From Natrialba swarupiae (GTDB lineage: Archaea; Halobacteriota; Halobacteria; Halobacteriales; Natrialbaceae), in assembly GCF_008245225.1 (NCBI RefSeq), contig NZ_VTAW01000007.1:62001-126000 (forward strand): a DNA stretch of 64,000 bases, given 5' to 3'. The notes under the pieces were generated by a model that saw only the letters and a list, made by a program, of their open reading frames with translations, was not told the DNA's origin and did not search any database. Position 1 is the first letter of the stretch. Every line of letters starts with the position of its first letter. Positions 4,589 through 42,329 of the stretch are shown piece after piece. A program made the position numbers and the translations under genes.

Positions 4589-4722
4589 CCCGGACCCTGC
4601 AGGGAGACGACGACCGCGAAACGCTTTGCAAGCGGCGTGTTTCGTACGGGTTGGGGTCCCCACGTACTGATGCACCCGCCCGGGGGTCGCAGGTGGACCG
4701 AAACTGACGGAGAATAAATCTA

Positions 4723-15896: not shown

Positions 15897-16647
15897 ATCC
15901 AGTCACGACCGACGGGAGTCAGACCGGACAGACGGCGAGGTGTTGCTGTCGGTCGAAGACCTCGTCGCCGGATACGGTCTCGGACAGGTCCTTCGGGGGA
16001 TCGACTTCGAGGTCGGTCGGGGCGAAGTCGTCTCGCTAATCGGACGCAACGGCGCTGGAAAGACGACGACACTCGAGAGTATTCTCGGGAACGTCCCCGA
16101 GATCGCCGGCACCATCCAGTTCGACGGAACCGATGTCACGGAGCTCAGCAACGACGAAACCATCAGCCAGGGGATCGCGTACGTCCCCGAAGAACGTCGC
16201 GTATTCCCGGGACTCACAGTCCGAGAGAACCTCGAGGTCGCACAGGTCGCCGCCGGGAACGACCGGGCTCGAGATATCGACACCATCATCGGGATGTTCG
16301 AAAACCTCCAGGAGAACGAACAGAGCCTCGGCAGCGAGATGAGCGGCGGTGAGCAACAGATGCTCGCGATAGCCCGTGCGCTCGTCAGCGGTGCAGAGCT
16401 CCTGATGCTCGACGAACCGACCGAAGGCCTCGCACCGTACATCGTTCGATCAGTCGAGGAGACGATAAAGGAATTAAACGAGAGCGGAATCACGATCTTG
16501 CTCGTCGAACAGAACGTACAGGTCGCGATGGAGGTCTCGGACACCCACTACGTAATCAACCAGGGGGAAGTCGTCTACGAGGGCTCCTCCGCCGACCTCG
16601 AAGAGAATCAACAGATTCTCGATCAGTATCTCGGTATCAGTTCCTGA
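15889..16647 (+). CDS. Liv-type ABC transporter ATP-binding protein (LivF-like)
   Basis: A 252-residue ATPase with Walker A GRNGAGKTT, signature MSGGEQQMLAIARAL and Walker B LLMLDEPTEGLAP, all typical of LivF. I chose the ATG at 15889: it overlaps the LivG stop as ATGAGTGA and is preceded by the purine-rich ggaggg at about 15876-15882, a good ribosome-binding site for translational coupling. An upstream in-frame ATG at 15865 adds only eight residues. Last gene of the Liv operon. Confidence 0.9.
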   Translation: MSESSHDRRESDRTDGEVLLSVEDLVAGYGLGQVLRGIDFEVGRGEVVSLIGRNGAGKTTTLESILGNVPEIAGTIQFDGTDVTELSNDETISQGIAYVPEERRVFPGLTVRENLEVAQVAAGNDRARDIDTIIGMFENLQENEQSLGSEMSGGEQQMLAIARALVSGAELLMLDEPTEGLAPYIVRSVEETIKELNESGITILLVEQNVQVAMEVSDTHYVINQGEVVYEGSSADLEENQQILDQYLGISS

Positions 16648-22089: not shown

Positions 22090-23103
22090 ATGCGGAAAGG
22101 TAACAATACCTATACTAGACGTCGCGCACTTCAAAAAGCAAGTGGAATAGCTGGAATTTCTACCATTGGTGCCCTAGCAGGATGTCTAGGAGATAGTGAT
22201 GGAACTGTTGAAGGTATTATTGGAACGAGTTTCGCACCTGGACACGTTCTTAATGAGCGGTTCATCGAGTGGTCCGAGAGTATATACGACGAGACAGATG
22301 GTGACGTTGATTTAGTTATTGAAGAGCAGTTGGATGGGGAGATGGAGCTGCTAGAACAAACCGAAATTCAGGCAATCGATGGAATGCTCATCGGTTCAAT
22401 GTGGATTGTTCAACACGCACCACAAGCATTTTGGGTAGAATGTCCATTTCTCTTCGAAGACTGGGATCAACAAGAAGAAGCATTTTTTTCAGATACAATT
22501 GAAGGGGTTCAAGAAGAGTACAGGGAAGAATATAGCTCATTAGTGTTGAGTGGGCCAATTTATCGTGGACAACGGCTAATGACTGCAAATAATCCCATCG
22601 AAACGCCAAGCGACTTAGCGGGATTAGATATGCGATTACCTGAAGTCGAGGAATGGGTTCGTATTTTTTCTGAGTTTGATGTGAACCCTACTACCGTTGC
22701 TTTTAACGAAATATATAGTGCCCTTGAACAAGGCATTGTGACTGCACAAGAAAACCCCGTTCACGATATATCAGCCCTACAACTACACGAAGTTCAAGAT
22801 TATCTTATGACTTCAGCACACGTTGCTCAATCGGCATGGTTTGTCGTAAATACTGAGTTCTGGAACGAGATCTCCGAGACCGACCAAGAGGTTGTAGCAG
22901 ATGAGACAGCACAGGCAGTGTCCGATCTAAATGAACAAATTCAGGCAGAAGAAGAACAAATAATTGATGAATTAGAGGACGAGGGGATGACTCTCGTAGA
23001 ACCAGAGTATGATGAGATGAGACAAATAGCCCTTGACGAAATTAATGAGATGTTCAATGACGGGACATATGACGGAGATTTCGATGAAATCACAAGCATA
23101 TAA
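22090..23103 (+). CDS. dctP: TRAP transporter substrate-binding lipoprotein (DctP)
   Basis: A 337-residue extracytoplasmic binding protein. The signal has a Tat motif (TRRRALQ) and lipobox LAGC, then GTSFAPGHVLNERFIEWSESIYDET, the usual DctP opening. It also carries the region DLAGLDMRLPEVEEWVRIFSEFDVNPTTVAFNEIYSALEQGIV with the conserved Arg that clamps the substrate carboxylate. It delivers an organic acid to the DctQM membrane subunits that follow. Codon use is strikingly AT-rich compared with genes on either side, consistent with horizontal transfer. The ligand is unknown. Confidence 0.9.
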   Translation: MRKGNNTYTRRRALQKASGIAGISTIGALAGCLGDSDGTVEGIIGTSFAPGHVLNERFIEWSESIYDETDGDVDLVIEEQLDGEMELLEQTEIQAIDGMLIGSMWIVQHAPQAFWVECPFLFEDWDQQEEAFFSDTIEGVQEEYREEYSSLVLSGPIYRGQRLMTANNPIETPSDLAGLDMRLPEVEEWVRIFSEFDVNPTTVAFNEIYSALEQGIVTAQENPVHDISALQLHEVQDYLMTSAHVAQSAWFVVNTEFWNEISETDQEVVADETAQAVSDLNEQIQAEEEQIIDELEDEGMTLVEPEYDEMRQIALDEINEMFNDGTYDGDFDEITSI

Positions 23104-23155
23104 TTAACTACTTATTCATATTATTTAATAAAAATAACCTACATAAAGTTAAGAT

Positions 23156-23701
23156 ATGAGAAATAGAGCATATAAAGTGAAAAGAGGCATTGATTTATCA
23201 ATACAGTCAGTCAGTATGGTTTTGTTCGGACTGATGTGCGCATCAGTTGGACTCCAAGTCTTCAATAGGTTGATACTGACTGAAATTGGAATGAACTTTA
23301 TTTGGACCGCAAGCCTTGGACAATTCCTTATGATAATTACAACATTTATTGGTGCAGGGTTAGCCAGTCGAGATCGGGAACATGTTCGTATCAATTACGT
23401 TCTAAAAAGATTGCCAAAGTCAATAACAAAATTGCTCGCTATAGTTTCTCGAGTTCTCATCCTTATTTTCTTATTCGTTCTGATCGTAGGAGGTGTCCAA
23501 TCTTTCACGTACAATATCGGATCACAGTTCCACATTTTACCACAATATCCACCGTTTACACGAGAGTGGCTAGCCCTCTCAGGTATAGTTGGCGCAGGCA
23601 TGATGAGCCTCTATGTTCTCCGGGACCTATATATAATCATGATTAAAAAGGAGCTTGACACGGTAGTCTTCGTGAATATTGCATCAGAGGGAGATCAATA
23701 A
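23156..23701 (+). CDS. dctQ: TRAP transporter small permease subunit (DctQ)
   Basis: A 181-residue, four-helix membrane protein. The motifs ASLGQFLMIITTFIGAGLASRDREHVRINYVLKRLP match the DctQ family, in which the R-x-x-x-H-V/I segment is conserved. It pairs with the large subunit, whose ATG begins one base after this stop codon. Same AT-rich codon use as dctP. Confidence 0.9.
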   Translation: MRNRAYKVKRGIDLSIQSVSMVLFGLMCASVGLQVFNRLILTEIGMNFIWTASLGQFLMIITTFIGAGLASRDREHVRINYVLKRLPKSITKLLAIVSRVLILIFLFVLIVGGVQSFTYNIGSQFHILPQYPPFTREWLALSGIVGAGMMSLYVLRDLYIIMIKKELDTVVFVNIASEGDQ

Positions 23702-23702
23702 T

Positions 23703-25004
23703 ATGTCGCCGGACCTCCTTCTAGCACTCTTATTCATCGGTATCTTACTAGCTCTCTATATTATTGGTGTACCAGTAGCGTTCGCTATGGGGCTTACCTG
23801 TCTTCTATTGATGTTCTCTCCTCTAATCTCGTTCGAGCCTCAATTAATTATGCACCAGATGGTAACTAGCTTAGACAATTTCATCATACTTGCCGTCCCA
23901 TTATTCCTCATGACTGGTTTGTACATGAATATGTTCGGTATGACTACCTCCATATTTGATTTCTCAGAAGCTCTGGTTGGGTCGATTCGTGGAGGGATTG
24001 CACACGTTAATGTTGTAGCGAGCGTAATTTTTTCCGGTATGTCTGGAGCAGCACAAGCAGATGCTGCTGGGCTTGGTGTGATTGAATTCAATGCAATGAA
24101 GGAGAGAGGTTATGACGAGGGGTACAGCGTTGCAGTAACTGGATCTTCTTCGATTATTGGTCCAATTATCCCACCAAGTATACCAGTAATATTTTATGGG
24201 ATTATGGCAGAAGAGTCAATTGGTGCTTTATTTATTGCTGGAGTTGTGCCAGGACTTATACTAGCATCAGTTTTGTTATTAATGTGTACATATTATGCAC
24301 ACAAGAAGGGGTTCGAAAGAGGCGAATCGTGGTCGATCAATCGGATTCTGGAGACATTTAAGCGAGCAGCACCCGCCTTGGGGGCTCCAATTCTGATTAT
24401 CGGTGGTATTATGCTGGGACTATTCACTGCAACCGAAGCAGGGGCTGTGGCCCTGTTCTATACGCTACTTATTGGCTTCGTATTTTACGACTCGCCGTCT
24501 CTCAAAGAATTTCTTCAGGTGAGTTACGAGGGGTTTGTAACAACTGCGGCCCTTCTTTTCATCATAACCGCCGCATTTCTATACAGTTTCATGGTTCGAC
24601 GAGCACAGATACCACACGTTCTTTCAGATTTTGTAACCGGGATAACCACTAATCCATTACCAACACTTCTGCTCCTAGTTGCGATTTTATTAATCATAGG
24701 GCTGATGATGGAAACAATTGCAGCCATTACAATCCTCGTACCTGTTTTACTCCCCATTATTCATTCTGCTGGTATCGACCCGATTCATTTTGGTATTATA
24801 ATGATACTTACATTGATGATCGGGTTGCTCACTCCACCATTTGGGATTATTCTGTTTATTCTACAAAAGGTTACAGGAGTCCCACTATCCGAAATTATGC
24901 GTAGTATTCTACCATTTTATTTCCCATTAGTGGGAGTGCTTATTCTCTTAATACTCTTTCCAGAAATCACATTGTCCCTACCTCGATTATCGGGCTTAGT
25001 TTGA
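23703..25004 (+). CDS. dctM: TRAP transporter large permease subunit (DctM)
   Basis: A 433-residue, 12-helix permease from the ATG at 23703, one base past the dctQ stop. Signature regions are AVPLFLMTGLYMNMFGMTTSIFDFSEALVGSIRGGIAHVNVVASVIFSGMSGAAQADAAGLG and SSSIIGPIIPPSIPVIFYGIMAEESIGALFIAG. It uses the Na+ gradient to drive uptake of the organic acid bound by DctP. A plausible AT-rich operon end follows. Confidence 0.92.
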   Translation: MSPDLLLALLFIGILLALYIIGVPVAFAMGLTCLLLMFSPLISFEPQLIMHQMVTSLDNFIILAVPLFLMTGLYMNMFGMTTSIFDFSEALVGSIRGGIAHVNVVASVIFSGMSGAAQADAAGLGVIEFNAMKERGYDEGYSVAVTGSSSIIGPIIPPSIPVIFYGIMAEESIGALFIAGVVPGLILASVLLLMCTYYAHKKGFERGESWSINRILETFKRAAPALGAPILIIGGIMLGLFTATEAGAVALFYTLLIGFVFYDSPSLKEFLQVSYEGFVTTAALLFIITAAFLYSFMVRRAQIPHVLSDFVTGITTNPLPTLLLLVAILLIIGLMMETIAAITILVPVLLPIIHSAGIDPIHFGIIMILTLMIGLLTPPFGIILFILQKVTGVPLSEIMRSILPFYFPLVGVLILLILFPEITLSLPRLSGLV

Positions 25005-25257: not shown

Positions 25258-25389
25258 TGAGTTACTAAGTGGATTAGTGTACATTCAAATAAGATATAGT
25301 TGAAAAAATATCGCATAAACTCTTCTATAGTACCCGTCTGTGTCGTCCAAAAGACAAGTATAAGTAATTGGAGGCGAGCGAGTCACCCA

Positions 25390-26025
25390 ATGTACGTTCC
25401 GGACGTCGTTCCCGAGGAGGACCGACAGACGATGGTCGACAAGGCAGAGTTCGGTGGCGAGATAGGTCTCGGCGAAGACATCGCCGTTCTCGTCGTCGAC
25501 ATGACCCGCGAGTTCGTCGAGGACGACTATCCCAACGGCTACGCAGAGACCGGACAGCCCGCAGCGAGTGCAATCGCTCGACTGATGGAGGAAGCGAGCG
25601 AGCGTGGGGTCCGCGGATACTACTCGCGGTCTCTCAAGGGAGAGCACCGCGTCGAGGCAGGCCAGTGGGGCGAAGCGAACCAGACCGAGGAGATGACCGA
25701 GCTCACCACCGAACTCTCACCCACCGAAGACGACGTCGTCTTCGAGAAGTACAAGCCGAGTGTCTTCTTCGGGACGCAACTCGAGAGTATGCTCAACTAC
25801 TCGAACGTCGACACCGTGATCGTGACCGGCATGACAACCTCCGGATGCGTTCGCGCGACGGTCGTCGACGCGTTCTCGCTCAACTATCGAGTGATCGTTC
25901 CCGAGGAGTGTGTGGCCGACCGGTCACAGGTCTCTCACGAGGTCTCGCTGTTCGATATGGACATGAAGTACGCCGACGTGGTCAGCCTCGATGACCTGAT
26001 CGAGGCTCTGAACGAGGCGTCGTAA
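25390..26025 (+). CDS. Isochorismatase-fold cysteine hydrolase, paralog 1
   Basis: A 211-residue hydrolase from the ATG at 25390. The cysteine-hydrolase triad is visible: Asp37 (VLVVDMTREF), Lys120/122 (EKYKPSVFF) and the nucleophile Cys153 (TTSGCVRATVVDAF). This pattern is typical of N-carbamoylsarcosine amidase and related amidases that split amide or ureido bonds. It is close to the protein at 42363 (same MYxPxxVPE start and VEDDYPNGYAETG). It stands between the TRAP operon and the peptide-type ABC operon; its GC content matches the bulk genome rather than the TRAP genes. Substrate unknown. Confidence 0.88.
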   Translation: MYVPDVVPEEDRQTMVDKAEFGGEIGLGEDIAVLVVDMTREFVEDDYPNGYAETGQPAASAIARLMEEASERGVRGYYSRSLKGEHRVEAGQWGEANQTEEMTELTTELSPTEDDVVFEKYKPSVFFGTQLESMLNYSNVDTVIVTGMTTSGCVRATVVDAFSLNYRVIVPEECVADRSQVSHEVSLFDMDMKYADVVSLDDLIEALNEAS

Positions 26026-26100: not shown

Positions 26101-27090
26101 TTAGTCGTCGAGACTAACACGTGGGTCAATGACGCTGTAGAAGATGTCAATAACGAAATTAGCCACGATAACGAATGCCGCGATAACGAAAAATACGAAT
26201 TGAACTGTCGCGAAGTCACGCGCGAGAACCGCCTGAACCAGTGCATACCCCATCCCTGGCCAATTGAACACGGTTTCGATGAGTACGAGCCCACCGATAG
26301 CACGTGCCATCGAGATCGGGTACAGCGTTATTACTGGTAGGCTGGAGTGTTTTGCAATTGATTTTAGACGTGCGCTCTTCGGAAGGCCAGTAACTCGTTT
26401 GTAGAATATGAAGTCCTGACCAAGTACCTCAACGACGCTCGTCCGCATGATGAGCGATGGGAGGAAGAGATAGCGCAAAACGACTGTCGTGAACGGGAGT
26501 ACAAAGTGCATCGCGAACGACTGGGTAAAGTAGATTCGCCACCACGGATCGTCGCTGTACTGATTCGCAACAGCCGGGTCGATCATCGAGGAGGTCGGGA
26601 ACCATCCCAAAAAGCCGGCGAAGACAATAATCATCAAAATTGCCAGGAAGAACTCCGGAATGGCGCCAATCGTGAGTAATGGAACGGGGACGAACTTTTC
26701 CAATTTTCCGCCGCGTTTGGTTCCAGTTACCGTCCCAATGACCGCGCCCAGGATATATGCAAGCGTAATTGCAGGAGCCGCAAGGATGAACGTGTTGAAG
26801 ATATTCATCTTTACGAAGTCCCAGACGGGTTCGTTCGTCTGTACTGAATATCCTGGTTCTAGCAGGATGAAATTGTAGATATATTGGAAGTACTGGACGT
26901 AGAGCGGATCGTTCAAACCCCACGACTCTTCAAATTCGGCAACCGTATCCGGGTCCGCACCCTGATACAGGAGTATATCGGAAATATCACCCGGCATCAA
27001 GCGGAAGAGGAAGAAGAGAAACGTCAGTACGAGCCACAGCAGGAAAACGGTCTGCGTAATTCGCTTTAAGAAGAATCGAACTTTGCTCAC
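26101..27090 (-). CDS. Peptide/nickel-type ABC permease (DppB-like)
   Basis: A 329-residue permease with about six helices. It has the DppB opening (LKRITQTVFLLWLVLTFLFFLFRLMPGD) and a C-terminal loop ETVFNWPGMGYALVQAVLARDFATVQ typical of the family. Last gene of the minus-strand operon 30139-26101 (permease C, ATPase D, ATPase F, permease B); its start overlaps the upstream ATPase stop by four bases. The system would import small peptides or other organic solutes captured by the binding protein at 30923. Confidence 0.9.
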   Translation of the reverse strand: MSKVRFFLKRITQTVFLLWLVLTFLFFLFRLMPGDISDILLYQGADPDTVAEFEESWGLNDPLYVQYFQYIYNFILLEPGYSVQTNEPVWDFVKMNIFNTFILAAPAITLAYILGAVIGTVTGTKRGGKLEKFVPVPLLTIGAIPEFFLAILMIIVFAGFLGWFPTSSMIDPAVANQYSDDPWWRIYFTQSFAMHFVLPFTTVVLRYLFLPSLIMRTSVVEVLGQDFIFYKRVTGLPKSARLKSIAKHSSLPVITLYPISMARAIGGLVLIETVFNWPGMGYALVQAVLARDFATVQFVFFVIAAFVIVANFVIDIFYSVIDPRVSLDD

Positions 27091-28163
27091 AGTTCGTCAC
27101 CCCCTTCGCCAGCAGAGATGGACTGGCCGTTCGCTACGTCGCCACTCGATGAAACCGCATTCAGGTCGCCTTGGTCGTCGTGCTCGGAGTGGAGGTGACA
27201 GGCAACGTGATGATCTGTCGATAGAGCATACGATTCCGGTGTCTTGTCACACAGTTCCATTCGGTCCGGACACCGATCCCTGAATCGACATCCGTTCCCT
27301 ATATTGATCGGGTCACCGGGTGTTCCAGGGAGCTCGGTGCGTTCGCGTTCAGCCTCCGAATCGGGAATCGGAATTGCAGAGAGGAGTGCTCTCGTATACG
27401 GGTGTTTGGGCTCGTTCAAGACAACCTCCGTTGCTCCCGATTCGACGACTCTCCCCAGATACATGACCTGCAACTGATGACAAACGTACGAGACCGTCGA
27501 AAGGTCGTGGGAGATGTATACCATCGAAACCCCAAAGTCGTCGATCAGATCAGAGAGCAACTGAAGAATCGCCGCCTGCGTCGAAACGTCCAGCATCGAC
27601 ACAGGTTCGTCAGCGAGGATGAGTTCCGGTTCAACGATCAGTGCACGAGCAATCGATACTCGTTGCTTCTGTCCACCACTCAACTGCTTCGGTAGCCTAT
27701 CGAGGTAGTTATCTACGGGAGAGAGTTCAACCTGTTCAAGTACGTCTCGTATTCGTCTGTCCCTCTCGTCGATATCGTGGATTTTTAACTGCTCCTCGAG
27801 TGTTTCACGAACCGATAGTTTTGGATCGAGCGCGTTAAACGGATCCTGGAAAATCATCTGGACCTCACGTCGGAACTGTTTCCAGTCGCCTTTGTCGAAC
27901 GTAGAAACGTCCGTCCCTTTAAATAAGATCTCACCACTCGTCGGTTCGTGTAGCCCAATGAGGGTTTCGATCAGTGTCGTTTTCCCGCATCCACTCTCAC
28001 CGATGACTCCCAGACTCTCATTTTCGTCCAGACGGAAAGAGACGCCGTCAACCGCCTGAACCGGGTCAGAATCTTTTCGAAGGATCCAGTCGACGATCCC
28101 AGCCTGCTGATCGTAGTACTTTTCTAGGTTTTTCACCTGCAATAGAGGCATGTCACTCGTCAT
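27087..28163 (-). CDS. Peptide-type ABC transporter ATP-binding protein (DppF/OppF-like)
   Basis: A 358-residue ATPase with Walker A GESGCGKTT, signature LSGGQKQRVSIARAL and Walker B LILADEPVSMLDVSTQ. The C-terminal CRFRDRCPDRMELCD is the Cys-rich oligopeptide-ATPase domain that in relatives can bind an iron-sulfur cluster. It overlaps the upstream ATPase by 11 bases and the downstream permease by four. It also has an extended acidic tail of about 40 residues. Confidence 0.9.
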   Translation of the reverse strand: MTSDMPLLQVKNLEKYYDQQAGIVDWILRKDSDPVQAVDGVSFRLDENESLGVIGESGCGKTTLIETLIGLHEPTSGEILFKGTDVSTFDKGDWKQFRREVQMIFQDPFNALDPKLSVRETLEEQLKIHDIDERDRRIRDVLEQVELSPVDNYLDRLPKQLSGGQKQRVSIARALIVEPELILADEPVSMLDVSTQAAILQLLSDLIDDFGVSMVYISHDLSTVSYVCHQLQVMYLGRVVESGATEVVLNEPKHPYTRALLSAIPIPDSEAERERTELPGTPGDPINIGNGCRFRDRCPDRMELCDKTPESYALSTDHHVACHLHSEHDDQGDLNAVSSSGDVANGQSISAGEGGDEL

Positions 28164-29208
28164 TTGCTAAACTCCCGCTTTTTTGATTGGGTGCTTTCCG
28201 GTCGTCGGTTCCCTGTTCGTTCTCTTCGCGAACGTCGTCCTTTCTGAAACAGGAGACGAAGTGATCGGAACGATCAGCCTCAGCCCTCTCGAGAGGTGGA
28301 GGCGCTTCTCGACACTCCTCTGTTGCCCATGGACAGCGATCGACGAACGTACAATAATCGGTTTCACCGATCTGTCGGGGCGGTTTCCCCTCGATCACGC
28401 TCAAATCTCGGTTCGGTTCACGGATGTCAGGAAATGCCTCCTGTAACAGCGTAGAATACGGGTGGTGGGGCTCGTTGTCTATCCGCGTAACTGGACCAAC
28501 TTCTGCAATCTGTCCACCATGCATAACAGCCATCCGATCACAGGATTCGAATACGACAGCGATATCGTGAGTGATCAACATGATACTCGTCCCAACTCGG
28601 TCGACAATATCGTCGATGTGCTTGAAGATCTGGTCCTGCATAATCACATCGAGTGCTGTCGTCGGTTCGTCAGCGATAATGAGAGAGGGCTCGAGAAACA
28701 GTGCAAGCGCGATAATTGCTCGCTGTTTCATTCCACCCGAGAATTGATGAGGATAATCGTGGATTCGTTCCGGATCGATCCCCACGATTTCGAACATCTC
28801 CTCGAATTTCGTTAGTGCCTCTTCCTCGTTCAGGTCGGAATGAAGGCCGGCGAGTTGTACAGCCTGTGTACTAATTCTTTCAAGCGGGTCGAGACTGTTC
28901 ATCGACCCCTGGGGGATGTAGGCTATCTCTTTCCATCGAATGCGCTGATTCAGTTCCTGTTCAGACAGATCCTGGATTTCTTCCCCCTTGTAACGGATCA
29001 CTCCGTTCGTCACTTGACCGTTCGAATCGAGTGCGTTGAGTATCGACAGTAACAACGTGCTCTTTCCACAGCCGGATTCGCCAACGACACCGAAGTACTC
29101 TCCTTCGGATACTGCAAAGGATGCGTCTGAAACAGCTGTTAGCATTCCTTCCTTCGTCTTGTACTGTACGGTGAGGTTTTCGACTTCGAGTAGTGGGTCA
29201 TCAGACAT
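28153..29208 (-). CDS. Peptide-type ABC transporter ATP-binding protein (DppD/OppD-like)
   Basis: A 351-residue ATPase with Walker A GESGCGKST, FSGGMKQRAIIALAL signature and Walker B LIIADEPTTALDVIMQ. The C-terminal Cys motif is CTFVDRCPWATEEC. It starts one base after the upstream permease stop. Together with the DppF-like protein it forms the heterodimeric motor of the importer. Confidence 0.9.
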   Translation of the reverse strand: MSDDPLLEVENLTVQYKTKEGMLTAVSDASFAVSEGEYFGVVGESGCGKSTLLLSILNALDSNGQVTNGVIRYKGEEIQDLSEQELNQRIRWKEIAYIPQGSMNSLDPLERISTQAVQLAGLHSDLNEEEALTKFEEMFEIVGIDPERIHDYPHQFSGGMKQRAIIALALFLEPSLIIADEPTTALDVIMQDQIFKHIDDIVDRVGTSIMLITHDIAVVFESCDRMAVMHGGQIAEVGPVTRIDNEPHHPYSTLLQEAFPDIREPNRDLSVIEGKPPRQIGETDYCTFVDRCPWATEECREAPPPLERAEADRSDHFVSCFRKDDVREENEQGTDDRKAPNQKSGSLANDE

Positions 29209-29209
29209 G

Positions 29210-30139
29210 TTATCCTGCCTCAGCGATCATGGACTCCTCATTCTGTGTGATTTGTGACTCTAATCGACGGCCAAGCATGAACAGCGAAAGGACTGTTATA
29301 GAGATCAAAAAGCCAGGCGGTAGCGACCACCACAGTGCCGACGACATCATGCCCGACTCGTAGGCGTTACGGACCATAATCCCCCACGACGGGACGAACG
29401 GGTCCGTTACACCAAGAAAAGCAAGTCCAGCTTGGATGACGATCGCGTATCCGGTACCCAGGGCAAGAAATAGAATTCCCATGGGCGCAACGTTCGGAAG
29501 GACGTGTTTGAAAATTATATACGGGGTGCTCGCGCCAGACGTTTTTGCCGCGAGGATAAACGGACGCTCCTTGATTTGGAGCACCTGTGATCGGATAACG
29601 CGAGCGAGTCCTCTCCACAGAACCGCACCAATGATCACTATCGAAACGTAAAACCCGCTACCGAATATCGCGACGACAACCAGTGCAAACGGGATAAGCG
29701 GAATACTGTACGTCAAGTCGGTAAAACGCATAAGAATGTTTCCGACCCGACCACCAACGTATCCAGAGACAACTCCGATAGTCATCCCGATCGAGAATAT
29801 CATAAATCCACTGACCATTCCAGTGACAACCGTCGGTCTCGCACCATACACGATACGCGAGAGTACGTCATACCCAGAGTCGGTCGTGCCCAGCGGGTGC
29901 GCTAAGGTAGGTGCAGCGGAAAACAGTATTTCGCCGTCAGGGCCGTATATTCGTTCGTTGTATCCGTAAGGGACGATCAGTGGTCCAATGACAGCGAGAA
30001 GTAGTACGAACGATATAAAACCCAAATAGATCATCGTTAGTTTATCAGATATCAGAATTCGTACACCTCCAATCAAACTTCGGAAGAAGCGTCTATCTCT
30101 CATAGAACTCATTCGGTTTGTGATGTTATTTCCGACCAT
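29210..30139 (-). CDS. Peptide/nickel-type ABC permease (DppC-like)
   Basis: A 309-residue permease, first gene of the operon. The periplasmic loop contains HPLGTTDSGYDVLSRIVYGARPTVVTGMVSG, the hallmark of DppC-type subunits, and the cytoplasmic coupling loop is near ASTPYIIFKHVLPNVAPMGI. Met13 at 30103 is an alternative start. It is divergent from the binding-protein gene at 30923 across a 783-base spacer. Confidence 0.9.
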   Translation of the reverse strand: MVGNNITNRMSSMRDRRFFRSLIGGVRILISDKLTMIYLGFISFVLLLAVIGPLIVPYGYNERIYGPDGEILFSAAPTLAHPLGTTDSGYDVLSRIVYGARPTVVTGMVSGFMIFSIGMTIGVVSGYVGGRVGNILMRFTDLTYSIPLIPFALVVVAIFGSGFYVSIVIIGAVLWRGLARVIRSQVLQIKERPFILAAKTSGASTPYIIFKHVLPNVAPMGILFLALGTGYAIVIQAGLAFLGVTDPFVPSWGIMVRNAYESGMMSSALWWSLPPGFLISITVLSLFMLGRRLESQITQNEESMIAEAG

Positions 30140-30922: not shown

Positions 30923-32695
30923 ATGGTTGTGAGCAAATCACAAGACGAGGAATCGTCTATCGACCGGCGAAAGTTACTTTCCGCACTTGGCGCGACCGCA
31001 GTCACGGGAATAGCCGGCTGTACTGGAGACAGCGAAGATGAAGACCTGGGTGAGCGAGTGCCAACCATCGTTTTCGAATGGTGGAGCGGTCTTGGTGGCT
31101 TCAGCCAGATACAGGAGAATGCTGCACCCGTCATCCAGGAGAATATCGAAGAGCTCGGCGTAGACGTCGAACTAGAGGGGACCGAGGGAGTAACTGCCTG
31201 GGTAAACATTATTAACGATGAACGGAACGCAAACCTGGCATTCGTTCATACAGGAAACAATCCAAACCGGCTCGATCCCCACGAAACCACACGCCGGTTC
31301 GCCGCCGACTATGCAGGACCCGAAGCAGGAGCCAATCCAGGTAACTATACCAACTGTGAGTATACCGATGTGGCCGTCGAGCAAGAAACAGTCGAAACCG
31401 TAGAAGGGCGAGAAGAACTCATCAACCAAGCACAGTCCATTGTGAGTGAAGATGCAATGGTCTATCCGATGTATGCTACTCCTTCGTTTGGGGCAATTCG
31501 GACCGACGAAGTAGATCCAGATGGTATTGGGGCCGGCGGTGTCGACTTCACGATGCCTCACGCCTACATCCGGTCAACTCCGAGAACGGGAGATCAAATA
31601 TCGGGCAATATGCACGCAGACGGAGCACAGTCACTGAACTATCTCGCGATGCCGAATGCGGAAACACTCGCGTTCTGGAGTCAGATACCGCACTCGCCAC
31701 TCGTTGGATATAACGAAGATTACGAGATAGAGAACGTTCTGGCAGAAGACTACGAGGTGACAAACGGTGGCCAAACATTTACAGTCGAACTTCGTGATGG
31801 AACGTTCCATAACGGTGACCCAATCACTGCAGAGGACGTACAGTTTACCTACGAGACACTCGACGAGAACACGGATGTATTCCCCCACGCCAGTAGTATT
31901 CCGTTCGAGTCAATCGAGATAATCGACGAGACGACAGTGGAGTTCAATACCACTGAACCGTTCCTTCCGTTGACTACGAGCGAATGGCCCCGATGGGGTA
32001 TCATTCATAAAGATAGTTGGCAAGACGCCGGGGTTGAAGAGACACCGACGTCACTCGACTTCGACGAGTTTATCGGATCAGGGCCGTTCCAGATCGAAGA
32101 TTTCCGACCGAACGAGAGCATTTACTTCTCACCTCACACGGACCACCCAGTCTACAGTCCCGATCACGATCTCATACTGAGCGTATACGCCGACGCCCAA
32201 TCGGCACAGCAAGCGTTCGAGAACAACGAGATACAGATCATCAGTCAAATCGGCCCGGGGGCTGCTGACCAGATTGAAGAATCCATGGGCGATGAAGCCG
32301 ACATCATCGTCACTGAAGGGCATATGACGCAGTCCGTATACCCACAGTATTCGTTCGGACCAACTAAATTCCACGCGTTCCGGGATGCAGTCGGAAAGTG
32401 TTTCGATAGGGAACTCATCGCTGAAGTCGCGCTACGTGGTCGAGGAGAACCGGATACACATGCCTCGTACCTCGGTCAACCCCATCCGTGGCGAGCGCCA
32501 GACGACATGCTATACGAATACACCGACGACATATCCGGAGATATCGATGCAGCTCGAGAAGCGCTGTCAGAAGCGGGATGGGAATGGGACAGCAACGGAA
32601 ACCTTCGATATCCCAACGATGCTGATCTTTCACCTCGATGGCCCGAGGGTGAGGCACCTGACCCGGAAGACTTTCCCTGCCTAGACGATCTCTAG
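30923..32695 (+). CDS. Peptide-type ABC solute-binding lipoprotein with circularly permuted SBP_bac_5 domain
   Basis: A 590-residue exported lipoprotein: Tat motif DRRKLLS (14-20) and lipobox Cys33 (IAGC). The family 5 domain is in unusual order. Residues about 46-195 read like the usual C-terminal half (AAPVIQENIEELGVDVELEG, LDPHETTRRF, NYTNCEYTDVAVEQE, REELINQAQSIVSEDAMVYPMY). Residues about 235-590 read like the usual N-terminal half (TLAFWSQIPHSPLVGYNED, then LRDGTFHNGDPITAEDVQFTYE at 290-311, GSGPF at 385-389 and the helix FRDAVGKCFDRELIAEV). The protein stops where a normal one would continue into the second half. Length suits one complete domain, so it is a permutation, not a duplication. 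It should supply the divergent DppBCDF-like operon. Confidence 0.82.
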   Translation: MVVSKSQDEESSIDRRKLLSALGATAVTGIAGCTGDSEDEDLGERVPTIVFEWWSGLGGFSQIQENAAPVIQENIEELGVDVELEGTEGVTAWVNIINDERNANLAFVHTGNNPNRLDPHETTRRFAADYAGPEAGANPGNYTNCEYTDVAVEQETVETVEGREELINQAQSIVSEDAMVYPMYATPSFGAIRTDEVDPDGIGAGGVDFTMPHAYIRSTPRTGDQISGNMHADGAQSLNYLAMPNAETLAFWSQIPHSPLVGYNEDYEIENVLAEDYEVTNGGQTFTVELRDGTFHNGDPITAEDVQFTYETLDENTDVFPHASSIPFESIEIIDETTVEFNTTEPFLPLTTSEWPRWGIIHKDSWQDAGVEETPTSLDFDEFIGSGPFQIEDFRPNESIYFSPHTDHPVYSPDHDLILSVYADAQSAQQAFENNEIQIISQIGPGAADQIEESMGDEADIIVTEGHMTQSVYPQYSFGPTKFHAFRDAVGKCFDRELIAEVALRGRGEPDTHASYLGQPHPWRAPDDMLYEYTDDISGDIDAAREALSEAGWEWDSNGNLRYPNDADLSPRWPEGEAPDPEDFPCLDDL

Positions 32696-32872: not shown

Positions 32873-33565
32873 CTATCGTGAGTCACTCATCAGCTTTTCC
32901 ATCTCTTTCTCCACACTACTTTTGTACTGATTGCCGATCAACCGGGAATGGATATTGTTCCCAGCGGCAAATAGAGTGGTCGGGGCACCAACGACATCAT
33001 AGTTATCTCGAAGGAACTCCACCCAGTTCGGGCCATACACGCCAACCAACAGGATATCGTCCGGTGAACTGGAGAAAATATCATCGAAAGTGGACGCAAC
33101 GGAATCACAGGGCTTGCAGTCTCGACGCCAAATATAGACGACAGTTTGCTCGTAGCACTGCAGTACTAGGGGAAGACGGTTTCCACGAATTGGGAGAAAC
33201 TCCGGCGTTAGACCATCGTTAGGTGGAGGGGGTTGACGAAACTGGTCCAAGATCGTTGTGAGCCTGATGACATCAGATGGTGGCTCAATCTGTTCAGCAA
33301 TCGCACAAAATTCCGCGAGGACACCCCGATCAATATCACGGACATTAGTAAGGAACGGCAATTCCCTACCGGTGAGGTTCTCCACCTGGTCTACACTACA
33401 CTCGTCTAGCTTGCGGATCTTCTCCTCATACTCGGAAATAGTGTTCTCGAACGCATTCGAAAGCTGAAACGTGTCACCGGTACTGCGTGCAAGTACATCT
33501 GCTTTAGCTGCACGCTTTAGCACGACATTGTGCTGCACAACAGTGATATACAGACAGGACTCCAT
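32873..33565 (-). CDS. Thioredoxin-fold protein with an unknown N-terminal domain
   Basis: A 230-residue protein. Residues about 120-230 look like a thioredoxin fold: VVYIWRRDCKPCDSV carries Cys150-x-x-Cys153, and VVGAPTTLF carries the cis-Pro (Pro195) that follows in thioredoxins. The first 120 residues are helical (ENTISEYEEKIRKLDECSVDQVENL) with three extra Cys and match nothing I know. No signal peptide is seen, so it is probably cytoplasmic. It is convergent with the binding protein. Function beyond thiol-disulfide chemistry cannot be assigned. Confidence 0.7.
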   Translation of the reverse strand: MESCLYITVVQHNVVLKRAAKADVLARSTGDTFQLSNAFENTISEYEEKIRKLDECSVDQVENLTGRELPFLTNVRDIDRGVLAEFCAIAEQIEPPSDVIRLTTILDQFRQPPPPNDGLTPEFLPIRGNRLPLVLQCYEQTVVYIWRRDCKPCDSVASTFDDIFSSSPDDILLVGVYGPNWVEFLRDNYDVVGAPTTLFAAGNNIHSRLIGNQYKSSVEKEMEKLMSDSR

Positions 33566-33772: not shown

Positions 33773-34807
33773 ATGTTTTTAACTAATCAAAGAAAGTGGA
33801 TAAGTGTGTCAACAATCAACATCTCACAGGCACAGATACCGGAAGGTGAATCAGAGTGGGTCGAAATCGACGTCGGTGTCGACTCCGACCTCTCGACTGT
33901 CACGTTACATCTCTACGTCATCAACGGTGAGCGAGAGGGACCGACACTCTGGCTGCAGGGTGGGATTCACGGAAACGAACAGGGTGGGTCCCTGGCCGTA
34001 AGAGACCTCGCCCTCGAGCTCGATCCCAGCGAGATTTCGGGAGCGGTAATCGCTCTTCCGGTGTCGAATCCATCCGGGTTCGCGAACAAACGTCGCGGGT
34101 CACAAATCAATCACGTCGGTCCGAGGGACGTCAACAGCCTCTTTCCAGGAGATCCAGACGGGACGTTTCCCGAACGGCTCGCAGACGAAATTTTCTCGCT
34201 GATTCGGTCACATGCGGATGCCGTTATCAATGCCCACAGTGCAGATGGAGAGACGATAATGCACACCGAGTTTGCGTACGTTCCAATGAGCGATACCACG
34301 ACTGACGAACGGACGAGTAAACTCGGATCTGCCTCCGGAATTACACATCTCGTCGAGTTGGATACCACGGAAATGAGCGGCTGGATGACCGCCGAACTCG
34401 TCGAACGTGGCATTCCGTCGATCATCGTCGAGTCCGGGTCCGGGACTCACGTATACGAGTGGGCATACGAAACCTACCGGCGGAGCATACAAAATGTCGC
34501 CCGGCATCTGGACATTCTCGACGGCAAACCGGAGGAAACCGACTCGTCCCAGACGGTGTACTCCGATCTCGTGTTTCTAAACGCAGGTGAAGGCGGGTTC
34601 GTCGAAACGTTCGTTCGCGGCGGAGACGAAGTCGAATCCGGAGAGTCACTCGCCGAAATTACGGATCTCAAAGGTCGGCAACGTGAACTGATCACGTCAC
34701 CGTGTGATGGAACGGTGTTTGCGATTCGGTCGTTTCCCACCGCCAGACCCGGTGACCTCGTCATCGAGATGGCCCCCGCACCGACTCCAACCGACGACGC
34801 AGAGTGA
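33773..34807 (+). CDS. Succinylglutamate desuccinylase/aspartoacylase (AstE/AspA) family zinc hydrolase
   Basis: A 344-residue zinc carboxypeptidase-fold deacylase. The zinc ligands are His66 and Glu69 in GGIHGNEQGG and His155 in NAHSADGE. RDVNSLFPG is the family variant of DLNRxFPG, and IVESGSG holds the likely catalytic Glu. The C-terminal 80 residues form a barrel-sandwich-like cap typical of the family. It would hydrolyse an N-acyl amino acid or related amide. The TATA-like tatataa at about 33747 supports the ATG at 33773. Substrate unknown; it may process what the neighbouring importer brings in. Confidence 0.87.
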   Translation: MFLTNQRKWISVSTINISQAQIPEGESEWVEIDVGVDSDLSTVTLHLYVINGEREGPTLWLQGGIHGNEQGGSLAVRDLALELDPSEISGAVIALPVSNPSGFANKRRGSQINHVGPRDVNSLFPGDPDGTFPERLADEIFSLIRSHADAVINAHSADGETIMHTEFAYVPMSDTTTDERTSKLGSASGITHLVELDTTEMSGWMTAELVERGIPSIIVESGSGTHVYEWAYETYRRSIQNVARHLDILDGKPEETDSSQTVYSDLVFLNAGEGGFVETFVRGGDEVESGESLAEITDLKGRQRELITSPCDGTVFAIRSFPTARPGDLVIEMAPAPTPTDDAE

Positions 34808-34981
34808 CTCGTAACGGGACACCGGAAACGAACGCTGTTATCCTGCGTCGAGATCCGTTATCGAGACGCCACGACGGCGTAAAAACGCACCAGCATCTGT
34901 TTTCGCTCGAGGATGAGTGATTCTCGGTCGCGTCGTGAGCCTAACAAAACGATTATCACTCCACTAACTCTCGGTGGGAGT

Positions 34982-35287
34982 ATGATCGACGTTGGGACGG
35001 AAGAACTACTCGAGGAGACCCCCCAGATCGTGACGGTCGAGGGGAACCGATACGTACTCCACGAACGTGAAAACGGAGACGTTGCGCTGTACAGTGCCAT
35101 CTGTCCCCATCAGCGCGGGCGAATCACGGCTCGAGAGGAGATACTCTTGTGCCCAAACCACCGGTGGAAGTTCGACCCCGAGACCGGCGAGTGTCTGACC
35201 GTAGACGACGAACGACTTCCGGCAGTCCCCGTCAGCCGAGAGGACGGGTCGCTCGTGGTTGAGACGTTACCCAGCAAAATTGCGTAA
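34982..35287 (+). CDS. Rieske-type [2Fe-2S] ferredoxin
   Basis: A 101-residue small Rieske protein with ligands in CPHQRG and CPNHRW, the Cys-x-His / Cys-x-x-His pattern of dioxygenase-type ferredoxins and nitrite-reductase small subunits. I chose the ATG at 34982, preceded by ggtggg; an upstream ATG at 34913 would add 23 residues that do not look conserved. No reductase is adjacent. It lies 27 kb from the ring-hydroxylating dioxygenase, for which it could in principle be the electron donor, but the context links it more directly to the hydrolase at 33773. Confidence 0.82.
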   Translation: MIDVGTEELLEETPQIVTVEGNRYVLHERENGDVALYSAICPHQRGRITAREEILLCPNHRWKFDPETGECLTVDDERLPAVPVSREDGSLVVETLPSKIA

Positions 35288-35409
35288 TCTCCCGGTGAGT
35301 TTTTAGTACTCCGCCACGCGTCGACTACAGGGTCAAATTCGGTGGTGTGGGCCGTTCGACCCTCCTGTTTAGGCTTACCAAAGCAGTAAATCGCGTGACG
35401 CGGACCGCA

Positions 35410-35480
35410 ATGAGTCGATCCCGGTCGATCGAAGACCGCCGGGTGATCGACCGGCAATCAGGTATCACAGACCGTACGAG
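35410..35480 (+). repeat. Dispersed intergenic element, copy A
   Basis: The first 50 bases, from atgagtcg to gcaatc, match 43113-43162 at about 38 of 50 positions. The following 20 bases end in a cagaccgta motif that also occurs at 37134-37163. Both copies are in intergenic sequence on the same strand. Confidence 0.45.
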
Positions 35481-36023
35481 ACAATCGACAGTAATCGATT
35501 TTCTTGTTGCACGCTCGCTCGTGAATCGGGTGTCAGTGCCATCGGTGATGGCCACTCGAGTGCACGCAGTGAGCAGATCGTTACAACGGGTACGAAAGTC
35601 CGGGAGGGCATCCGGTCGTAGTACGAATCCACAAGTAATTCGACGTGTCCTGCAAGGATTGTTGATTAGCTATGTGGACAGACAATCAATAGGAACAGGT
35701 GAATCGTTTTACGTAATTCAAACCACTCCCCAGTTACCGACAGTATCTATAATACCCTTAGTCAATTATTCCATATCTTCTTGATAAGAAATAAAAGCTA
35801 GCGGTTTGATAATCCATGGTGACACACCGCACAGTATTCCGTAACACATTCCGACGGAGAACAGATCAGGGCCAAAGCCGCCCAGATTTGACACCCACTC
35901 GGGGCCGGAAAACGGGAGGGTTCGACGGGTAACGGGTATCGGGACCCGTGCGGAGAGTATCCGCTCGTGGAATTGATGTTACAGGCATATACTCGGTGGT
36001 GAAGCTATACGGGTGCTACTCTA

Positions 36024-36039
36024 CTATAGTAGCCACTGA
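36024..36039 (-). repeat. 16-base inverted repeat, right copy
   Basis: Exact reverse complement of 30674-30689. See that entry. Confidence 0.6.
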
Positions 36040-36265
36040 TGCGGACGACGATGGGTCTATACCGACCAATCACACGATGGAGAGCGACCGACCGGCAACC
36101 AGATATGGGTTAGTCGACGCAGGGTGAGTCCGTACACGGGACCGAGCGACGTGAGCGAGTCGGAGACCACGAAACATCCGGTTAGCGACGGTCATCGCTA
36201 ACTCATTGCTGATCGTACCAGTTGGGACGATAGGATACAGCAAGGTGGCGAAACGCAGAACAGCC

Positions 36266-36297
36266 ACTCATACGGTTTACTGTCCCAGTGGACCAGC
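36266..36297 (+). repeat. Dispersed tacggt element, inverted orientation
   Basis: Contains ctcatacggtttactg, resembling the reverse complement of the segment at 37134-37163 (ctcatacggtctgcgatg) and of the 3' part of copy A. Similarity is short and imperfect. Confidence 0.35.
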
Positions 36298-36365
36298 GCA
36301 ACCGCCACTTGATTCGCGGACGTATAAAAAGTATCTGACAGGAAACGGTATCAGAGTGGGAGTGA

Positions 36366-36372
36366 TTATATA
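36366..36372 (+). promoter_or_regulatory. TATA box before the DUF1989 gene
   Basis: ttatata is centred 31 bases before the ATG at 36400. Confidence 0.55.
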
Positions 36373-36399
36373 ACAGGAACACCGATACGATACGGTAAG

Positions 36400-37026
36400 A
36401 TGGGGTTCACACACTCGCACTCGGAAGTAGTTCCGGCGTCGACTGCTCGAGCGTATCAGGTGGCCGCACATCAGCGGTTTCGGATCGTAGCACACGAGGG
36501 CGCACAGGTTTGTGACGCAGCCTTCGTTGGTGCCGACAACCACTCCGTCACTTATAGCTCGGACCTATCCGTGCTGTTCAACCAGCTCGAGGGGACAGGC
36601 GATATCCACAGCCTCGAGACGCTGTATTCTCGCCCACCGGACACGGAGCCAATGGTACGTGTGACTGAAGATACGATCGGTCACCATTTCCCGTGGGCCG
36701 GGGGGATGTGCTGTTCGTACTTATACGAGATACGTGACGACGAACCATCTCACGAGAACTGCGCGGACAACCTGCTTACGGCCCTCAACGAGCGTGGTCT
36801 TTCGCTAGAGAAGGTACCGGAAGTGTTCAACATCGGAATGCACGTTACCGTCGAGGACGATCAAATCCAGTACCTACCTCCGGAGTTTGGCCGGGGAGAT
36901 TACATCGAACTCGAACCCCAGATCGATCTGATCGTCGGGATTTCCTCGTGTCCAAACGATACGACAATCATGAACGAATCCGAGCCGAAATCACTGGAGA
37001 TCCAGTTCGAGGACCCGCCGCGGTAA
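36400..37026 (+). CDS. DUF1989 (urea carboxylase-associated) family protein
   Basis: A 208-residue protein of the family often found beside urea carboxylase/allophanate genes. Recognisable parts are VVPASTARAYQVAAHQRFRIVAHEGAQVCD near the start, PWAGGMCCSYLYEI, ALNERGLSLEKVPEVFNIGMHVTVEDD, and the C-terminal GDYIELEPQIDLIVGISSCPNDTT. The conserved Cys and His residues suggest a metal site, but the activity is not established. No urea carboxylase is seen here; the neighbours are a Rieske ferredoxin and a luciferase-like enzyme. It may act on an amino-acid or ureide-like compound. Confidence 0.85.
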   Translation: MGFTHSHSEVVPASTARAYQVAAHQRFRIVAHEGAQVCDAAFVGADNHSVTYSSDLSVLFNQLEGTGDIHSLETLYSRPPDTEPMVRVTEDTIGHHFPWAGGMCCSYLYEIRDDEPSHENCADNLLTALNERGLSLEKVPEVFNIGMHVTVEDDQIQYLPPEFGRGDYIELEPQIDLIVGISSCPNDTTIMNESEPKSLEIQFEDPPR

Positions 37027-38689: not shown

Positions 38690-39484
38690 TTAGTCGACTG
38701 TCATCGACTGCTCGAATCCAATCTGAGCCTCGGATTTCAGGGCTTCCCACAGATCGTCGGTGATTTCGTTGAATCTATCCGACGTCATGATCGACTCGTC
38801 TCGTGGTCGTTCGATGTCGACTTCGACTAGTTCTTTGATCTCGCCAGGGCGTGCGCTCATCACGAACACTCTGTCGGAGAGAAATGCAGCCTCAGTAATC
38901 GAGTGTGTAATGAACATCGTCGTTTGATTGGTTTCCTGACATATTCGGAGTAGTTCGCCACCGAGAATGAGTCGGGTTTGCTCGTCCAGCGCACCGAAGG
39001 GTTCGTCCATCAACATCAGATCCGGATTGAGCGCCAGCGTTCGAGCAATTGCAACGCGCTGTCTCATTCCGCCGGAAAGTTCCGATGGATAATTGTCTTC
39101 GAACCCCGAGAGACCAACTAACTCGAGAATATCGTGTGCACGGTCACGTCGCTCCTGTTTGCCCACACCCCTCATTTCCAGACCGAATTCGACGTTCTCG
39201 AGCGTAGAACGCCACGGGAACGTCGAATCCTCCTGAAAAACGACCCCGATGTCTTCTCGCGGTCCTGTAATTGACTCACCGTCTAACGTGATTTCACCTT
39301 CGGTCGGTTCGATCAGCCCAGCCACCATTTTCATCAGCGTGCTTTTACCGCACCCTGTCGGACCGATGACGGAGAAGAACTCCCCTTCATCGAGTTCACA
39401 GCTGACGTCACGAACGGCTTCGACACTGTTCGGTTTGTTCGCGTTGTACGTCTTGGAAACGTTGTTTATTTCTAATTTTGCCAT
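38690..39484 (-). CDS. Nitrate/sulfonate/taurine-type ABC ATP-binding protein (SsuB/TauB-like)
   Basis: A 264-residue ATPase with Walker A GPTGCGKST, signature LSGGMRQRVAIARTL and Walker B LMLMDEPFGALDEQTR, all typical of the SsuB/TauB/ThiZ group. It is the last gene of the minus-strand operon 42217-38690, two bases after the permease stop. Substrates of the group include sulfonates, nitrate and pyrimidine precursors. Confidence 0.9.
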   Translation of the reverse strand: MAKLEINNVSKTYNANKPNSVEAVRDVSCELDEGEFFSVIGPTGCGKSTLMKMVAGLIEPTEGEITLDGESITGPREDIGVVFQEDSTFPWRSTLENVEFGLEMRGVGKQERRDRAHDILELVGLSGFEDNYPSELSGGMRQRVAIARTLALNPDLMLMDEPFGALDEQTRLILGGELLRICQETNQTTMFITHSITEAAFLSDRVFVMSARPGEIKELVEVDIERPRDESIMTSDRFNEITDDLWEALKSEAQIGFEQSMTVD

Positions 39485-39486
39485 TG

Positions 39487-40299
39487 TTAGATCCCCATCT
39501 GTTCGTCGGAGGTCATATTCCAGCGTTCCTCAAGCAGTTGTTGAGCGCCGTAGAAGATAATGTTGATTACAAAGGCGATCACGGCTAACACGGTAACGAC
39601 GATTAGAATCTCTTCGCTGTTAAACGTTCCCATAGCATGCTGTAAGACCAGGCCAAGGCCGGATCTGGCAGCGAATAGTTCGACGAGAATAACCGCCAGG
39701 AAAGCACTATTGAACGTAAGTCGAAGAGCGACGACTAACTGGACGAGAATGTACGGGAGCACGATGTGGCGGAACATCTGATACCGCGAGACCTGAAGCG
39801 ACTTTCCAACGTTGATGTAGACGTCGTCGATCGAGCGTACCGCCCCCATTGTAATGATCAGCATCGGGAAAAACGACGAAAACGTTGCAAACCCAACTTT
39901 CGTATTCAACCCGACACCGAAAATAAAGAGGAATATCGGGTACATCGTAATCTTTGGGACGGAGTAAAACGAGAGGAAAAACGGTTCAACGATGTCGTAG
40001 GCGGGTTTGTTAAACCCGAGGATCAACCCAGTGACACCGCCAATGACGGTCGCGATGAGAAATGAAATAACGACAGCCTGCATCGTCACGTTCGTGTTCG
40101 GGATAACCCATCCTGATTGGATTCCCTCATAGAGGGCTGAGAAGGTGTGGACTGGCCCTGGAAGAACACGTGGCCCAATCCACCGACTCAACAGCTCCCA
40201 GAGACCGACGATAACGAAGGGAACGAGCAGCCGGTAGAGCGCGATCGATGACGGTGTCCGATCCAATATGTCTTGAGTGCGTGTTGTTTTGGTACTCAT
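39487..40299 (-). CDS. SsuC-type ABC transporter permease 1
   Basis: A 270-residue permease with about six helices. The coupling region GKSLQVSRYQMFRHIVLPYILVQLVVALRL is the EAA-like loop of the SsuC/TauC family. Start ATG at 40299 follows the upstream permease stop after one base. The two permease genes (this and 40301-41077) are paralogs and probably form a heterodimer. Confidence 0.9.
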   Translation of the reverse strand: MSTKTTRTQDILDRTPSSIALYRLLVPFVIVGLWELLSRWIGPRVLPGPVHTFSALYEGIQSGWVIPNTNVTMQAVVISFLIATVIGGVTGLILGFNKPAYDIVEPFFLSFYSVPKITMYPIFLFIFGVGLNTKVGFATFSSFFPMLIITMGAVRSIDDVYINVGKSLQVSRYQMFRHIVLPYILVQLVVALRLTFNSAFLAVILVELFAARSGLGLVLQHAMGTFNSEEILIVVTVLAVIAFVINIIFYGAQQLLEERWNMTSDEQMGI

Positions 40300-40300
40300 T

Positions 40301-41077
40301 TCACGTCCTCCGGTGAAGTCTGTCTTCGATTCGGATCAGTCCGAGATTCACAACGACTGCTAGCGTTATCACTATCAGTAATACGGCGTACATATCTGCA
40401 GTCTGAAACTGCTGATAGTACCAAGAGATCTGGTATCCGAGTCCCGAATTCGAGAGAATGAACTCGCTTGCGATAACGCCGATAAATGCGTACACGAATC
40501 CAAGCTTTAAGCCAGTGAAGATATAGGGGACCGCTGCGGGGAAAATCACGTGACGAAACTGTTCTCGACGCGAAAGACCCATCGAGCGTCCGACGTCGAT
40601 GAGGACGTCCGGAACCTTTGCCAAGCCGTTCGCAGTGCTAATAATGATGATCGTGACGCTCATCGCGAAGGCGATGAGAACGATAGGGAACACGTTCAGC
40701 CCGAAAACGATGATGAACATCGGGTAAAAGACGAATATTGGCATGGCGTACAGTACAATCAAGTACGGGTCCAACACCTGCTTGACCTTGTCGTGTCGCC
40801 ACAGGAACCAGCCTATGACCAACGCGACCAGTGTCGCCGACACAAACGAGACGAACACGAGACCGATCGTCGTAATGATATCGTCCGTGAGTTCTCCCGA
40901 TACGAGAAGACCGTACGCTGTTTCCACCATTGTGGAGAGTGGAACGTACGTTAGTTGGTCGAACCATTCAGCACGACCAACTAGTTCGAGCGTCGCCAAT
41001 ATCGCAACCAACAACGTTGCTCTACCGAGCCGTATCTGTTTACTATAGGGTAACGATGAAAGTCCTGTTAAACTCAT
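40301..41077 (-). CDS. SsuC-type ABC transporter permease 2
   Basis: A 258-residue permease, paralog of the gene at 39487. The coupling loop reads GRSMGLSRREQFRHVIFPAAVPYIFTGLKLGF. About 50 bases after the binding-protein gene. Two distinct permeases in one SsuABC-type operon is a common arrangement in pyrimidine/riboflavin-precursor-like systems but also occurs elsewhere. Confidence 0.9.
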   Translation of the reverse strand: MSLTGLSSLPYSKQIRLGRATLLVAILATLELVGRAEWFDQLTYVPLSTMVETAYGLLVSGELTDDIITTIGLVFVSFVSATLVALVIGWFLWRHDKVKQVLDPYLIVLYAMPIFVFYPMFIIVFGLNVFPIVLIAFAMSVTIIIISTANGLAKVPDVLIDVGRSMGLSRREQFRHVIFPAAVPYIFTGLKLGFVYAFIGVIASEFILSNSGLGYQISWYYQQFQTADMYAVLLIVITLAVVVNLGLIRIEDRLHRRT

Positions 41078-41128
41078 ATGTATGTGGTCGGATAGGTGTT
41101 CAAGTTCTGTTGTGTACAGCAGAACTCG

Positions 41129-42217: not shown

Positions 42218-42329
42218 GTGAGTTTTCAACACACTATATGTGTACATCTACAACGCAACTCCACCGTATTAAATCCAACCCATCCGGAAAATTTCAGCAG
42301 CCAGGTCAGAGAGAGTAGTGGTGGGAAAA

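Follow-up and report, generated by a model that had tools for sequence, protein, structure and literature searches.

Known circular permutants among solute-binding proteins

TpMglB-2 (Tp0684) of Treponema pallidum, classed as 'Type Ic / cluster Bc', is a natural circular permutant and a membrane-tethered solute-binding protein (SBP) found in many species. Its authors reported that sequence searches failed to match one end of the protein, and tethering was suggested as the driver of the permutation (PMC4990184). Glycine betaine-binding proteins are likewise circular permutants of molybdate-binding proteins/CysB (CPSARST, PMC2395249).

The protein described here is the 590-aa product of a gene in a stretch of 64,000 nucleotides from Natrialba swarupiae (the window). 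Its nearest normal relatives are the family 5 or cluster C proteins (OppA, DppA, NikA, AppA; PF00496), with which it shares the sequences of both domain pieces, the permease and ATPase partners, an export signal, lipoprotein anchoring and the predicted fold. It differs from them in the order of the pieces, in the placement of its termini (domain III instead of domain I), and in a haloarchaeal tail with a cysteine pair. With TpMglB-2 it has in common a circularly permuted SBP chain, but the Treponema protein has a cluster B sugar-binding fold with permuted strand order; PF00496 was the sole Pfam match of the whole 590-aa protein and the list of fold matches was filled by family 5 structures. 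The glycine betaine/molybdate pair is also a permutation inside the periplasmic binding protein superfamily, found through structures and involving remote families, whereas here both orders coexist in one sequence family and in one genome.

The initial annotation knew of no such permutation in family 5, and our search of the open-access literature, with subscription papers and preprints outside its scope, found none either. A permuted family 5 structure already deposited in the PDB was also considered and rejected, no permuted chain being seen among the listed matches of three permuted queries (the 590-aa SBP, P0001, together with L042 and L050). The best PDB stretches of these queries paired the later part of the query with the beginning of the chain, or its earlier part with the chain end. 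The cluster C permutation would be an old rearrangement, apparently undescribed for family 5, and by analogy with the cluster B case the permuted subclass of cluster C could be named 'cluster Cc'.

A family 5 binding protein with its two pieces in swapped order

The features of the gene are as follows.

30923..32695, + strand: coding sequence of the 590-aa solute-binding lipoprotein, a circularly permuted member of family 5 (SBP_bac_5, cluster C) (ATG at 30923, stop codon at 32693-32695; PF00496 159.1 bits, cut-off 32.4)
30923..31021, + strand: Tat-type signal peptide (RRKLL) and lipobox GIAGC, the lipidated Cys being residue 33 (from the sequence; RR and lipobox in 61 of 66 haloarchaeal homologues)
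31058..31570, + strand: relocated C-terminal piece, aa ~46-216, limits approximate (HMM 389-513; PF00496 300-361; 5isu 350-466)
31571..31588, + strand: joint, about TPRTGD, aa ~217-222, where the former C-terminus meets the former N-terminus (gap between the two HMM matches; approximate)
31589..32620, + strand: first-half piece, aa ~223-566, with domain I, domain II and the start of domain III (HMM 43-375; model aa 220-568 on NikZ 1-330)
32621..32692, + strand: clade-specific (haloarchaeal) C-terminal tail, aa 567-590 (...DPEDFPCLDDL) (two homologue alignments)

The chain order of this protein is swapped. The initial annotation had placed the second half of the SBP_bac_5 domain before the first, and PF00496 positions 300-361 do precede positions 1-287. 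In the Pfam scan the best match joined aa 268-562 to profile positions 1-287 of 368, and the N-terminal piece scanned by itself gave positions 300-361. An HMM built from 16 normal-order proteins matched aa 62-195 with its positions 389-513 (i-Evalue 4e-15) and aa 223-566 with positions 43-375 (1e-56). As a control, about 55 normal-order proteins from many phyla each gave one collinear match to the same HMM; a collinear alignment in the normal family 5 order was sought for the 590-aa SBP and none was found. The PDB sequence 5isu also aligned in two pieces in reverse order (chain 59-343 with aa 270-560, chain 350-466 with aa 61-184), and the matches of NCBIfam models of normal members were confined to aa 257-569.

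The blocks AAPVIQENIEELGVDVELEG, SEDAMVYPMY, LRDGTFHNGDPITAEDVQFTYE, GSGPF and FRDAVGKC were found in the translated ORF at the positions first reported. The order of the pieces stood; their limits, originally put at aa ~65-185 and ~235-590, were refined to aa ~46-216 and ~223-566, with some 24 extra residues after the second piece. The relocated piece corresponds approximately to the end of domain III plus the last domain I segment of a normal OppA/NikA-type protein. Nothing is duplicated or missing, as had been claimed: each piece occurs once (HMM 43-375 and 389-513), no second C-terminal piece follows at the end, and the domain is complete by the HMM matches and an AF2 model (pTM 0.79). A duplication with a hidden second copy was ruled out, since neither piece occurs twice in the search with the HMM from normal-order proteins. 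Judged by sequence, the protein is a permuted variant of SBP_bac_5/cluster C and not a standard member, because its pieces come in swapped order instead of the canonical one with both termini in domain I.

Permuted paralogues and orthologues in haloarchaea

Both orders are present in the N. swarupiae genome. Its 14 ORFs with a PF00496 match comprise seven whose alignment to the profile starts at positions 1-6 and ends at 354-365, five that are permuted, one with an in-frame stop and one unclassified. The permuted ORFs are the gene studied here and four further loci (L002, L006, L007 and C34), and in all five the PF00496 model ends at 255-287 of its 368 positions. At G000:C58:11162-11716 the same genome has a family 5 SBP reading frame interrupted by a TAG, which may be a pseudogene.

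Orthologues in the same order, which the initial annotation had suggested looking for in other haloarchaea, were found in many Halobacteriales. Matches at E<=1e-20 occurred in 108 of 392 sampled genomes of this order, nearly all of them spanning both pieces in the permuted arrangement, and annotated plasmids from named haloarchaea, among them Halostagnicola larsenii, Halalkalicoccus and Halobaculum, encode permuted SBPs as well. The annotated records of permuted proteins name them only as 'ABC transporter substrate-binding protein'. The genome of N. swarupiae is a draft in 99 contigs, and an assembly error or a recent fusion that brought two partial SBP genes together is a general possibility in such a case. 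This explanation is refuted because the orthologues share the same order, with an identical cut, in dozens of other genomes, on the named plasmids and in bacteria, besides the five loci of N. swarupiae itself, and we give it practically no credence.

Occurrence outside the haloarchaea

The initial annotation had described the permutation for this one gene. The order that it described holds, and the scope is wider, being specific neither to the gene nor to haloarchaea. In a scan of species genomes, permuted full-length homologues were also found in Bacillota (Anoxynatronum, Brevibacillus), Actinomycetota (Micromonosporaceae), Pseudomonadota (Pararhodobacter, Acuticoccus, Paracoccus, Nitratireductor, Rhodophyticola, Rhizobiales, Burkholderiaceae), Spirochaetota (Spirochaetaceae), Thermodesulfobacteriota (Desulfobacterales) and Thermoproteota (a Desulfurococcaceae archaeon). 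The HMM from normal-order proteins recovered the swapped order in each of the non-haloarchaeal groups scanned. Close relatives of the Nitratireductor protein are encoded on plasmids of Neorhizobium galegae, Ketogulonicigenium vulgare, Roseomonas and Microvirga.

Prevalence within phyla was estimated by profile searches in which few candidates were scored per genome, so the counts are lower bounds. Permuted proteins were present in at least 16 of 247 genomes of the window's own phylum, all within its own order. With the centre genome itself counted, they were present in at least 6 of 199 genomes of the Anoxynatronum phylum, at least 1 of 249 of the Pararhodobacter phylum and at least 1 of 151 of the phylum of the Desulfurococcaceae archaeon. 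Outside Halobacteriales the permuted proteins look to be of low prevalence, the counts being minimum values. Family 5 is a large family of binding proteins, and its models cover the permuted proteins only over part of their length. In Sporosarcina quadrami, the contig stretch that encodes a divergent permuted family 5 lipoprotein of 605 aa (L113) also encodes one in the normal order.

Cut point and origin of the permutation

The cut is common to the permuted proteins. In 37 of them the first-half piece ended at HMM positions 367-369 and the relocated piece started at 378-391 (interquartile ranges), with the GW.WD..G.L.YP block on one side of the cut and the strand GERVPTL.F on the other. Such a natural permutation site may also be of use in biosensor design.

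For the phylogeny, sequences were un-permuted before alignment (74 rows). In the free tree the permuted rows were split, needing four label changes, and L113 of Sporosarcina and the haloarchaeal L007 grouped with the normal proteins. These placements would fit several independent permutations in different lineages at the same domain III loop, a site that could be structurally favoured. Holding all permuted rows together as one clade, however, gave a likelihood 6.75 lnL units above that of the free search (AU p 0.57), a comparison with which long branches and halophile composition interfere and in which the AU test is no proof of one origin. This gain and the common cut point both speak against repeated permutation, which we regard as unlikely though deserving attention. 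From the same two lines of evidence, a single old permutation event, with divergence and lateral transfer among archaea and bacteria coming later, is favoured, not proven.

Predicted structure and anchoring

An AF2 model of the permuted chain, built with 17 sequences, had a mean pLDDT of 78.8 and a pTM of 0.79. With an order-dependent aligner, aa 220-568 of the model superimposed on residues 1-330 of NikZ (4oet; Z 22.9, rmsd 2.4, 326 residues). The relocated piece folded alone gave a model of low confidence (pLDDT 67.2, pTM 0.46); the best Foldseek matches of this weak model were family 5 proteins, and most of its VIA-align matches to family 5 fell in the C-terminal third (OppA 356-481 and NikA 337-466, for example, with Z about 4). 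The chain most likely still adopts the two-lobed cluster C fold, in which the relocated piece would occupy its usual position.

In OppA, domain I comprises residues 1-44, 169-270 and 487-517, domain II residues 45-168 and domain III residues 271-486. These limits place the cut in domain III. The old N- and C-termini would have been joined and the new termini opened within domain III (lobe II), at a site that corresponds roughly to OppA residues 355-361. Normal termini lie in domain I and the cut in domain III, so the topology would put the lipid anchor on the lobe opposite to the normal one. The initial annotation had already pointed out that the anchor would attach at a different point of the fold, which follows from the topology; any functional consequence would be a further step. 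The permuted and normal paralogues of one genome offer a direct test of whether the anchor-bearing lobe matters for delivery to the permease.

Permuted members from Gram-negative bacteria have ordinary cleavable signals and no lipobox (signal peptides were read by eye) and look like soluble periplasmic proteins. The permuted form therefore does not seem to need a lipid anchor, which bears on the suggestion that tethering drove the permutation in TpMglB-2.

A cysteine pair and a thioredoxin-like neighbour

Two codons of the SBP gene and one neighbouring gene enter the argument here.

31355..31357, + strand: codon of Cys145 in the NCEYT motif, one half of the proposed disulfide (all-or-none with Cys586, 66 homologues)
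32678..32680, + strand: codon of Cys586 in the DFPCL motif, the other half of the proposed disulfide (all-or-none with Cys145, 66 homologues)
32873..33565, - strand: thioredoxin-like protein of 230 aa with CKPC at aa 150-153 (about 33107-33118) and no hydrophobic signal (PF00085 22.3 bits, just below the cut-off of 23.5)

C145, in the N-terminal segment, and C586, in the C-terminal tail, both belong to the split domain III. Within the haloarchaeal clade both residues were present in 58 of 66 proteins, neither in 8 and a single one in none; in several members their equivalents are the only cysteines of the mature protein. This pattern suggests that they probably form a disulfide in the clade. 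As the two residues lie at opposite chain ends of the split domain, the bond would tie these ends together.

A thioredoxin-like protein of 220-230 aa is encoded near the permuted SBP in most loci of the haloarchaeal clade. Among 384 genomes, a strong match to it (E<=1e-14) was found in 29 of the 33 with the SBP clade and in 1 of the 351 without it (Fisher p 4e-38, relatedness ignored). Furthermore, it has a CxxC motif in 46 of 47 loci where the SBP carries the Cys pair, and SxxC in all 8 loci where the pair is missing. The loss of the pair is one event on the tree, so that the link between the thioredoxin-like protein and the pair is suggestive and not statistically independent. The exception is the second system of locus L164, in which an SBP with the pair is accompanied by an SxxC protein.

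L164 (G381) itself holds two permuted SBP systems about 9 kb apart (3480-6379 and 13950-16635), each with its own thioredoxin-like gene, one CEPC and the other SSSC, and with the Cys pair in both SBPs. A second independent loss of the pair at this locus was considered and ruled out, since the alignment shows it present.

The thioredoxin-like protein has no hydrophobic N-terminus and is therefore predicted to be cytoplasmic. The Tat pathway exports folded proteins, which makes it plausible that a cytoplasmic oxidoreductase makes or guards a disulfide before export. The neighbour may in this way make or maintain the C145-C586 bond before the folded SBP leaves through Tat, and the system is a candidate example of a disulfide that is formed ahead of Tat export with the help of a dedicated partner.

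The main rival is that the pair and the thioredoxin-like protein serve the substrate (for instance a metal, or a compound with a thiol or disulfide) rather than the folding of the SBP, since a protein predicted to be cytoplasmic could well reduce an imported disulfide compound. Against it, the first Cys of the thioredoxin-like protein was lost in the clade whose SBPs lack the pair (again one tree event), and this pair-less clade still retains the CxxC-less protein near the transporter (L139, L154-L160). We regard the substrate role as possible, if rather doubtful. Equally tentative is the full picture of an ancient, cross-domain class of permuted cluster C SBPs, anchored through the other lobe, whose haloarchaeal members would have domain III closed by a disulfide from a dedicated cytoplasmic thioredoxin-like protein before Tat export.

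Transporter neighbourhood and putative role

The permuted SBP gene and a complete DppC-D-F-B set (26101-30139) are divergently oriented, and all four transporter genes are conserved neighbours.

29210..30139, - strand: DppC-type permease (PF00528, PF12911)
28153..29208, - strand: DppD-type ATPase (PF00005, PF08352)
27087..28163, - strand: DppF-type ATPase (PF00005, PF08352)
26101..27090, - strand: DppB-type permease (PF00528, PF19300)

This cognate transporter of the DppBCDF/OppBCDF type is conserved in orthologues. In the first neighbourhood set, DppB/C/D/F genes adjoin 18 of the 20 haloarchaeal orthologues; in bacteria they lie downstream of most orthologues. Given this conserved adjacency, the 590-aa protein is very probably the circularly permuted binding subunit of a DppBCDF-type ABC importer (oligopeptide/dipeptide/nickel family); the two-lobed protein would close on its ligand and hand it to the permeases. 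A sensor or scaffold no longer taking part in transport, in which the permutation was tolerated after loss of function, could be imagined from the divergent orientation of the SBP gene in some loci, as here, where it is not in the same operon as the transporter genes. Such a role is very improbable, given that the DppB/C/D/F genes adjoin the SBP in nearly all loci of archaea and bacteria and that the family 5 blocks are conserved in the permuted proteins (homologue alignments).

Genes for an AstE/AspA-type deacylase, a Rieske ferredoxin, a DUF1989 protein and an isochorismatase-type protein surround the transporter (33773-37026 and 25300-26022) and perhaps make up a cluster for the breakdown of an N-acyl or ureido compound. 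These neighbours suggest an amino-acid-derived compound as the putative substrate class, which is a guess. Three more importers, recognised from N-terminal sequence only, lie nearby: a branched-chain amino-acid-type ABC system (13081-16647), a TRAP-type system (22090-25004) and an SsuABC/NitT-type ABC system (38690-42247).
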